A stretch of DNA of 64,000 bases from Polaromonas sp. (GTDB taxonomy: Bacteria; Pseudomonadota; Gammaproteobacteria; Burkholderiales; Burkholderiaceae_C). The position numbers were made by a program, and so were the translations under genes. The notes under the pieces are model-generated. The model searched no databases. It was not told the origin of the DNA and saw only the letters and a list, made by a program, of their open reading frames with translations. The stretch lies in the NCBI GenBank assembly GCA_030655515.1, contig JAURVI010000025.1:1-64000 (forward strand), written 5' to 3'. Shown piece after piece: positions 12,768-16,070 of the stretch (position 1 is its first letter; every line of letters begins with the position of its first letter).

Positions 12768-15700
12768 TCATCGACGCAGCGTCGTGGCCCAGTCCTGCAG
12801 CGAGCGGACACCGACCTCGCCCGTGAGCAGCGCCTCGATGCCCTGGACGGCCGCGGCCAGCCCCTGCACCGTGGTGATGCACGGGATGTTCTCCCGGACG
12901 GCCGCGCTGCGGATCTCGTAGCCGTCGAGGCGCGGGTTGCCGCCGGAGCTGACGCCGTGCGGGGTGTTGATGATCAGCCCGATCTCGCCGTCGAAGATCT
13001 TGTCGACGATCGTGCTCGGGTGCTCCGCCCCGGAGTCCGCGTCCTCGGTGAGCTTGCGGATCACGGTCGACCGCACGCCGTTGCGCGCCAGGACGGCGGC
13101 GGTGCCGCTCGTCGCGAGGATCTCGAAGCCGAGGTCGGCCAGGCGCTTCACCGGGAAGATCATGTGGCGCTTGTCGCGGTTGGCGACCGACACGAAGATC
13201 TTGCCCGAGCGCGGCAGTCCGTCCTGCGCGCCGGCCTGGGCCTTGGCGAACGCGGTGCCGAAGAGCGCGTCGATGCCCATCACCTCGCCGGTGGAGCGCA
13301 TCTCGGGCCCGAGCACGGTGTCGACGGTGGTGCCCTCGACGGTGCGGAAGCGGTTGAACGGCATCACCGCCTCCTTGACGGCGATCGGCCCGTCGGCGGG
13401 GAGGTCGCCGCCGTCGCCGTGGGCGGGCAGCACCTCCTCGCGGCGCAGGCTGCGGACGGTCTCGCCCAGCATCACCCGGGCGGCGGCCTTGGCCAGCTGG
13501 ACGCCGGTGGCCTTGGACACGAACGGGACGGTGCGCGAGGCGCGCGGGTTGGCCTCGATCACGTAGAGGACGTCCGAGGCCAGGGCGAACTGGATGTTGA
13601 TCAGCCCGCGGACGCCGACCCCCTTGGCGATCGCCTCGGTCGACGTCCGGATGCGGTCGATCTCCTCGCGGCCGAGCGTGATCGGCGGCAGCGCGCAGGA
13701 GGAGTCGCCGGAGTGGATGCCAGCCTCCTCGATGTGCTCCATCACGCCGCCGAGGTAGAGCTCCTCGCCGTCGTAGATCGCGTCGACGTCGATCTCGATC
13801 GCGTCGTCCAGGAACCGGTCGACGAGCACCGGGTGCTCGGACGAGATCTGCGTCGAGCGGCCGATGTAGTCCGCCATCGACTCCTCGTCGTAGACGATCT
13901 CCATGCCGCGCCCGCCGAGCACGTACGACGGGCGCACGAGCACCGGGTAGGCGATCTCGTCGGCGATGGCCTTGGCCTCGGCGAACGAGGTGGCCATGCC
14001 GTGCTTGGGCGCGGGCAGGCCGGCCTCGGCGAGCACGCGACCGAACAGACCGCGGTCCTCGGCGAGGTCGATCGCCTCGGGCTGGGTGCCGACGATGGGC
14101 ACGCCCTCGGCGGCGAGCGCGGCGGCGAGGCCGAGCGGCGTCTGGCCGCCGAGCTGCACCACGACGCCGGCGACGGGGCCGGCGGCCTGCTCGGCCGCGA
14201 CCACCTCGAGCACGTCCTCCAGGGTGAGCGGCTCGAAGTAGAGCCGGTCGGAGGTGTCGTAGTCGGTCGAGACGGTCTCGGGGTTGCAGTTGACCATCAC
14301 GGTCTCGTACCCGGCCTCGGACAGCGCCAGGCAGGCGTGCACGCACGAGTAGTCGAACTCGATGCCCTGGCCGATCCGGTTCGGACCGCTGCCGAGGATG
14401 AGCACGGCCGGCCTGGTGCGCGGCGCGACCTCGGTCTCCTCGTCGTAGGAGGAGTAGTGGTACGGCGTCGCCGCGGCGAACTCGGCCGCGCAGGTGTCGA
14501 CCGTCTTGTAGACCGGCCGGATCCCCAGCGCGTGCCGGACGCCGCGCACGACGTCCTCGCGCAGGTCGCGCAGCTCGCCGACCTGGAGGTCGGACAGCCC
14601 GTGGCGCTTGGCCCGGCGCAGCACCGCGGGCGTCAGCTCGTCGGCGTCGCGCACCTCCAGGGCCACCTCGTGCATGAGCAGCAGCTGGTCGACGAACCAC
14701 GGGTCGATGCCCGTGGCGTCGTGCACCTCCTGGACGGACGCGCCGGCGCGGATCGCGTCGAGCACGACAAGCAGCCGGCCGTCGTGGGGCACCGAGGCGC
14801 GCTCGAGCAGCGCCTGCTTGGTCTCGGGCGGCGGAGCGGCCCAGCTGAACGCGGCCTCGGGACGCTCCAGCGAGCGCAGCGCCTTGCCGAGCGCCTCGGT
14901 GAAGCTGCGGCCGATGGCCATGGCCTCGCCGACCGACTTCATGTGCGTGGTGAGGCGCGGGTCGGCCGAGGGGAACTTCTCGAACGCGAACCGCGGCGCC
15001 TTGACGACGACGTAGTCCAGGGTGGGCTCGAAGCTGGCGGGCGTCTCGCGGGTGATGTCGTTGGGGATCTCGTCGAGCGTGTAGCCGACGGCCACCTTGG
15101 CGGCGATCTTGGCGATCGGGAAGCCCGTCGCCTTGGACGCCAGCGCCGACGACCGCGACACGCGCGGGTTCATCTCGATCACCACCATGCGGCCATCGAC
15201 GGGGTTGATGGCGAACTGCACGTTGGAGCCGCCGGTATCCACGCCGATCTCTCGCAGCACCGCCAGACTGGCGTTGCGCAGGATCTGGTACTCCTTGTCG
15301 CTCAGCGTTTGCGCCGGCGCCACGGTGATCGAGTCGCCGGTGTGTACCCCCATCGGGTCGAGGTTTTCGATCGAGCAGACGATGATGCAGTTATCCATCT
15401 TGTCGCGCACCACTTCCATCTCGTACTCTTTCCAGCCGAGCAGCGACTCTTCGATCAGCAGTTCGCTGGTCGGCGAGGCTTCCAGGCCGCGCTTGCAGAC
15501 CACTTCAAACTCTTCGGCGTTGTAGGCAATGCCGCCGCCGGTGCCGCCCAGCGTGAAGCTGGGGCGGATGACAGTCGGAAAACCCAATGTTTTCTGGACG
15601 GCCCAGGCTTCTTCCATGCTGTGCGCGATGCCGGAGCGGGCCGAGCCCAGGCCGATTTTGGTCATCGCGTCCTTGAACTTCAAGCGGTCTTCCGCCTTGT

Positions 15701-16070
15701 CGATGGCCTCGGGTGATGCGCCAATCAGCTCGACCTTGTATTTGTCGAGCACGCCCTTGTGCCACAAATCGAGGGCGCAGTTCAGCGCGGTCTGGCCGCC
15801 CATGGTCGGCAAGATCGCATCGGGCCTTTCCTTCGCAATGATCTTCTCCACCGTCTGCCAGGTGATCGGCTCGATGTAGGTGACGTCGGCGGTGGCCGGG
15901 TCGGTCATGATGGTCGCCGGGTTGCTGTTGATCAGAATGACTTTGTAGCCTTCTTCGCGCAGCGCCTTGCAGGCCTGCACGCCAGAGTAGTCGAACTCGC
16001 AGGCCTGGCCGATGATGATGGGGCCGGCACCGATGATGAGAACGGATTGGATGTCTGTGCGTTTAGGCAT
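12768..16070 (-). CDS. carB: Carbamoyl-phosphate synthase large chain, chimeric sequence
   Basis: 1100 aa, uninterrupted. Builds carbamoyl phosphate with CarA for arginine and pyrimidines. Two ATP-grasp halves (about 1-400 and 550-930) flank an oligomerisation domain; an MGS-like allosteric domain (930-1100) ends it. The N-terminal part, to about residue 280, is betaproteobacterial ([18 protein letters not shown], mixed codon endings). From about residue 315 it is actinobacterial ([20 protein letters not shown], nearly all G/C third positions). The join falls in the invariant stretch around [18 protein letters not shown]. Everything on each side belongs to a different phylum, so this protein probably does not exist in any cell. 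Confidence 0.9.
15130..15250. other. Probable assembly junction between two phyla, inside carB
   Basis: Third-position GC is close to saturation below about 15,150. From about 15,230 upward, AT-ending codons appear (for example GTATCC, TTATCC, TTTTCG on the plus strand). The bases between encode [20 protein letters not shown] and the following NPRVSRSS, nearly invariant in all CarB proteins, so the DNA of two organisms could be near-identical here. That is the expected site for an assembler to join unrelated genomes. Confidence 0.85.

Follow-up and report, generated by a model that had tools for sequence, protein, structure and literature searches.

Is the carB gene of this contig a real fusion of proteobacterial and actinobacterial sequence, or were two unrelated genomes joined within it? 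The window, that is, the whole stretch of 64,000 nucleotides analysed here, comprises positions 1-64,000 of contig C35 in an assembly of 2.65 Mb and 52 contigs, with an estimated completeness of 84.8% and an estimated contamination of 5.2%; its fragmentation and contamination lead us to infer a metagenome bin. As set out below, the hybrid carB almost certainly arose as an artefact, through the joining of about 15 kb of actinobacterial DNA to a proteobacterial contig.

Two ancestries in a single reading frame

On the reverse strand, carB (12,768-16,070) forms a single intact open frame of 1,100 amino acids, which as a whole matched both PRK05294 (1640.9 bits; cut-off 599) and TIGR01369 (1422.7 bits; cut-off 1027). 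Residues 1-280 are 95.0, 96.4, 95.4 and 94.6% identical to four relatives of the same genus (L086-L089, respectively) and 88.6% identical to a genome of the same order (L090). The same residues matched 72 of the 80 actinobacterial loci at 60-67% identity and two others (L101 and L117) at 34-36% only, apparently through the internal repeat of CarB; 6 of the 80 yielded no match to this part. For residues 296-1075, identities reached at most 80.8%, to actinomycetes, with Mumia xiangluensis (L116) as the best match; against the same-genus relatives, as against C28, another contig of the bin, identity was 52%. Among the best 8 of 66 records in a plasmid collection, the N-terminal part matched Neisseria, a betaproteobacterium (80%), and then gammaproteobacteria (78%), which fits a betaproteobacterial origin. 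A preliminary description of this DNA had called the N-terminal quarter of CarB betaproteobacterial and the rest actinobacterial, joined without a frameshift; separate comparison of the two parts (95-96% within the genus vs. at most 80.8% to actinomycetes) and the unbroken frame bear out both statements. Each half of the hybrid resembles ordinary CarB (PRK05294, TIGR01369) but, unlike in ordinary CarB, the halves derive from different phyla, and for this reason the annotated hybrid protein most likely does not exist.

The position of the switch was estimated from codon counts in 22 proteobacterial and 74 actinobacterial sequences and with a codon-by-codon breakpoint model comprising 17 distinct proteobacterial rows (of 22) and 88 actinobacterial rows (of 89). 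The model assigned 97.4% of the posterior probability to codons 297-316 (15,182-15,125) and 62% to codons 297-301, with a peak at 15,179, so that the earlier placement at 15,130-15,250 stands broadly and is narrowed to 15,125-15,182. A join exactly at codon 284/285, where C28 starts, received almost no weight. Ser282 (TCC) and Val284 (GTG) are proteobacterial codons, as are GAT at 292 and ATG at 295 (found in 0 and 4 of the 74 actinobacterial rows, respectively); contrary to the latter pair, codons 287 and 290 (GCC, CCC) are more actinobacterial in appearance.

The switch falls on sequence exactly common to both lineages. Over 20 bp (15,163-15,182) the window is identical to C28, and 17 bp of these (15,163-15,179) occur exactly in the proteobacterial same-genus locus L070 and in the actinobacterial loci L095, L116 and L179, in a comparison of 10 loci that are relatives of the true source genomes rather than those genomes themselves. 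Other same-genus loci, such as L079, have shorter exact runs at the join than L070. Composition and origin change abruptly at the same point. A check of third-position GC, suggested at the outset, revealed a jump within carB from 0.82-0.90 on the proteobacterial side to 0.97-1.0 past the switch, with 0.81 again in the last 21 codons; total GC is about 0.75 left of the join and about 0.61 right of it, and the tetranucleotide signal flips its sign in the 15,001-16,000 bin.

Gene content on the two sides of the join

Table 1. Features of the window around the join in carB, with positions, strand and supporting evidence.
Feature	Position	Strand	Evidence
Actinobacterial block, GC ~0.75	1-15,125	-	Pfam/NCBIfam, gene order, composition
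rpe (ribulose-phosphate epimerase)	519-1,187	-	Pfam/NCBIfam
rsmB	1,219-2,559	-	Pfam/NCBIfam
fmt (methionyl-tRNA formyltransferase)	~2,552-3,514 (start estimated)	-	Pfam/NCBIfam
priA	3,618-5,669	-	Pfam/NCBIfam
metK	~5,701-6,885 (start estimated)	-	Pfam/NCBIfam
coaBC	~6,993-8,231 (start estimated)	-	Pfam/NCBIfam
rpoZ	~8,269-8,562 (start estimated)	-	Pfam/NCBIfam
gmk	8,592-9,203	-	Pfam/NCBIfam
mihF (actinobacterial IHF)	~9,145-9,459 (start estimated)	-	Pfam/NCBIfam
ORF without family	9,579-10,169	-	
pyrF, type 2	10,102-10,920	-	Pfam/NCBIfam
GH13 enzyme gene	~11,026-12,600 (start estimated)	-	Pfam/NCBIfam
carB 3' three quarters, right end of the actinobacterial block		-	
carB residues ~316-1100, actinobacterial	12,768-15,125	-	up to 80.8% identity to actinomycetes (residues 296-1075)
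Join zone	15,125-15,182	-	breakpoint posterior 0.974; exact-match runs in 10 loci
carB residues 1 to ~297, proteobacterial, native to the bin	15,182-16,070	-	95-96% identity to L086-L089; 15,100-16,070 matched in relatives
ORF6N-domain gene between carA and carB	16,077-16,580	-	Pfam ORF6N, 113.9 bits
carA, proteobacterial	16,620-17,825	-	sole CPSase small-chain match in the bin

Left of the join, the order carB-pyrF-mihF-gmk-rpoZ-coaBC-metK-priA-fmt is kept, for the genes present, in all 80 actinobacterial loci, which were collected through PyrF and several of which are short contigs; in 69 of the 80, all seven genes from carB to metK lie on one strand. This order, the GC content of the block and the presence of the mihF family agree with the initial view that the left genes are actinobacterial in sequence and order. 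The type 2 pyrF, which had also been named as an actinobacterial marker, was dropped as such because the bin carries another type-2 PyrF on contig C39. For PriA of the left block, which had been described as helicase-less, the closest models were the PRK14873 primosome families, with scores under the respective cut-offs, and the ORFs at 31-492, 856-2,868, 1,476-3,173, 489-1,232 and 9,579-10,169 matched no family in Pfam/NCBIfam. No phage or mobile genes were recognised among the ORFs scanned in the block, and its gene order is that of an ordinary actinobacterial chromosome. A search for its source in the order of Mumia gave a best DNA identity of 82% (249 of 391 genomes scored).

The GH13 gene lies between carB and pyrF, where the Mumia locus (L116) has dihydroorotate dehydrogenase genes; its nearest NCBIfam model is alpha,alpha-phosphotrehalase, below the cut-off, and a GH13 match was found in 0 of the 80 actinobacterial loci.

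The preliminary description assigned all genes right of the join to Burkholderiales; synteny (at ~16.6-17.9 and 21.1-29.5 kb) and composition agree with a proteobacterial origin of the stretches that they cover, the name Burkholderiales being that description's own. In two relatives (L086 and L087), carA and carB are nearly adjacent, vs. the ORF6N gene interposed here, which lies within a local GC dip (0.52 at 16,001-16,500). On its other side, carA is adjoined at ~17,930-21,080 by an enoyl-CoA hydratase gene and two acyl-CoA dehydrogenase-family genes, and the product of one of these dehydrogenase genes (19,837-20,994) shares 74% identity with a protein from a Sphingopyxis plasmid; L086-L089 have less than 200 bp in place of this three-gene stretch.

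The native carB end and its context in the bin and in relatives

When the hybrid CarB was used as query against the assembly, one further carB was identified, on C28 (L009), matching residues 285-1081 from base 2 onward at 56% identity; the three remaining matches were weak (24-32% over short stretches). C28 is open at its 5' end: its base 1 lies in the middle of carB and aligns with window position 15,219, and the remainder of the proteobacterial carB is followed by greA and a DUF4149 gene, then by folD in the opposite orientation. A mis-join at the switch predicts that the native 3' part of carB should be orphaned elsewhere, and it is found at this contig end.

We compared by eye the match lists of 40 relatives (24 of the same genus and 16 of other families) for C28 and for positions 15,100-16,070 of the window. 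In 36 of the 40, namely 21 of 24 same-genus and 15 of 16 other-family relatives, the match to the N-terminal part of carB and the match to C28, which starts within the first 1-26 bases of C28, adjoin each other in a single contig; in some of these (e.g., G013 and G026) a contig end cuts carB elsewhere. Three relatives (G003, G005 and G009) had no such pair among the matches listed, and G030 was without a match. Over most of the 20 kb examined in each of L086-L089, window positions 29.5-21.1 kb, carA, the N-terminal part of carB and C28 are collinear. Conversely, the flank at 3,618-15,050, the part of the block used as query, occurs in 0 of the 40 relatives among the matches listed, which fall on carB with its internal repeat, on metK and on several short segments of 64-85% identity; nor do any of the 40 have the same hybrid arrangement among these matches.

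The bin carries a second metK on C23 and, as noted, a second type-2 pyrF on C39, together with a single carA. An actinobacterial counterpart, comprising carA and the 5' part of carB, was not found in the bin. WhiB is a family typical of Actinobacteria; it was absent from the bin in a search that, as a control, found WhiB in 1 of 14 genomes (Corynebacterium). In the first 4 kb of 50 other contigs, GC was 0.51-0.69 in 49, and in C26 this stretch reads as N only; by this comparison of contig starts, the foreign DNA seen is therefore the 15 kb at the end of C35, which starts inside it.

Among the first 37 bases of C28, 5 differ from window positions 15,183-15,219; 20 identical bases follow. The orphaned end is thus not identical to C35 over their overlap, although identity would be expected only if a single clonal strain were present; therefore either the C28 end or the C35 stretch belongs to a variant strain, or a more complex path was taken. 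C28 and the right part of C35 have similar identities to five relatives compared, L087 being nearest for C28, the N-terminal part of carB and the upstream block, and L089 for carA. We consider strain variation in the sample the likeliest source of the mismatches, and C28 would come from the same strain as the right part of C35 or a very near one. The mismatches weaken the claim of a single strain for C28 but leave that of a chimeric contig unweakened. The pattern over bases 1-57 of C28 hints at a strain mixture in the bin.

Origin of the hybrid carB

Could a crossover in carB have brought an actinobacterial chromosome segment of at least 15 kb into a proteobacterium? The intact frame across the join would agree with such an event, conserved sequence is where a homologous crossover is expected, and the second junction of a single crossover, if near the C28 start, would be compatible with the contig end there. 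However, the block consists of chromosomal housekeeping genes that retain the order and composition of the donor; among the ORFs scanned, it has neither phage or mobile genes nor accessory cargo, and native copies have not been replaced, the bin retaining the proteobacterial 3' part of carB, which C28 holds from its first base, and second copies of metK and pyrF. Given also that the flank is present in 0 of the 40 relatives among the matches listed, we reject real transfer, to which we assign only a very small probability; equally improbable is its corollary, a functional cross-phylum CarB in a proteobacterium that carries the block of at least 15 kb, with the displaced native part of carB retained on the far side of the insertion.

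Template switching at the common stretch during whole-genome or library amplification, followed by faithful assembly, is unlikely but deserves considerably more weight than real recombination, and under it the hybrid carB would still be an artefact. In its favour, the junction lies on a microhomology of 17-20 bp, which falls below the large k at which most assembly graphs are finalised. Against it, C28 starts within about 40 bases of the likeliest join, as would fit a graph branch, and chimeric molecules are normally rare relative to native ones, so that the native path should win in assembly.

We therefore favour, with a probability of roughly 0.88, a chimeric contig made in assembly through a short carB stretch identical in both genomes. 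The two-part identity and the sharp breakpoint on common sequence argue for this reading, as do the opening of C28 in mid-carB and the meeting of the two pieces in 36 of the 40 relatives, the lack of the flank in all 40 among the matches listed, the duplicated metK and pyrF alongside one carA, and the actinobacterial gene order of the left block together with the lack of WhiB and the contamination of 5.2%. Starting at the 5' end of the proteobacterial carB, the assembler would have run into the stretch of 17-20 bp at codons ~297-303, which an actinobacterium present in the sample would carry in identical form, and would have left it along the actinobacterial carB and pyrF to rpe, the proteobacterial continuation being left over as the start of C28. 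The branch node of the assembly graph would sit at ATCGAGATGAACCCGCG, with two outgoing paths. It seems probable that the sample contained such an actinobacterium and that the junction arose during assembly, not in a cell or as a wet-lab chimera.

Two observations speak against a simple mis-join, namely the mismatches at the start of C28 and the absence from the bin of the actinobacterial carA and carB 5' counterpart. For assemblers whose last rounds use a large k, a common stretch of 17-20 bp is also short; only in a graph of small k (~21) would it be enough. The preliminary description held that a mis-join at a conserved sequence explains everything; nearly all data support the mis-join, although the 5 mismatches in 37 bases of C28 are not explained by it. 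The joining of two genomes through common k-mers is a known route to chimeric contigs in metagenome assembly (PMC7299287), and C35 is alike in that common k-mers would link the sequence of two genomes. In the part of that article concerned with such chimeras, the link is provided by related species or sequencing errors, whereas in C35 different phyla are linked over 17-20 bp.

Taken together, these findings indicate that the hybrid carB is almost certainly no genuine fusion of biological origin. We recommend splitting the record at 15,125-15,182, keeping the left piece apart and regarding C28 as the contig next to C35. This is a clean case of a mis-join that preserves both the reading frame and the operon order, and gene-by-gene annotation would hardly catch it; databases would list the hybrid CarB, along with about 15 kb of foreign genes, as proteobacterial, and these could be mistaken for an interphylum transfer.
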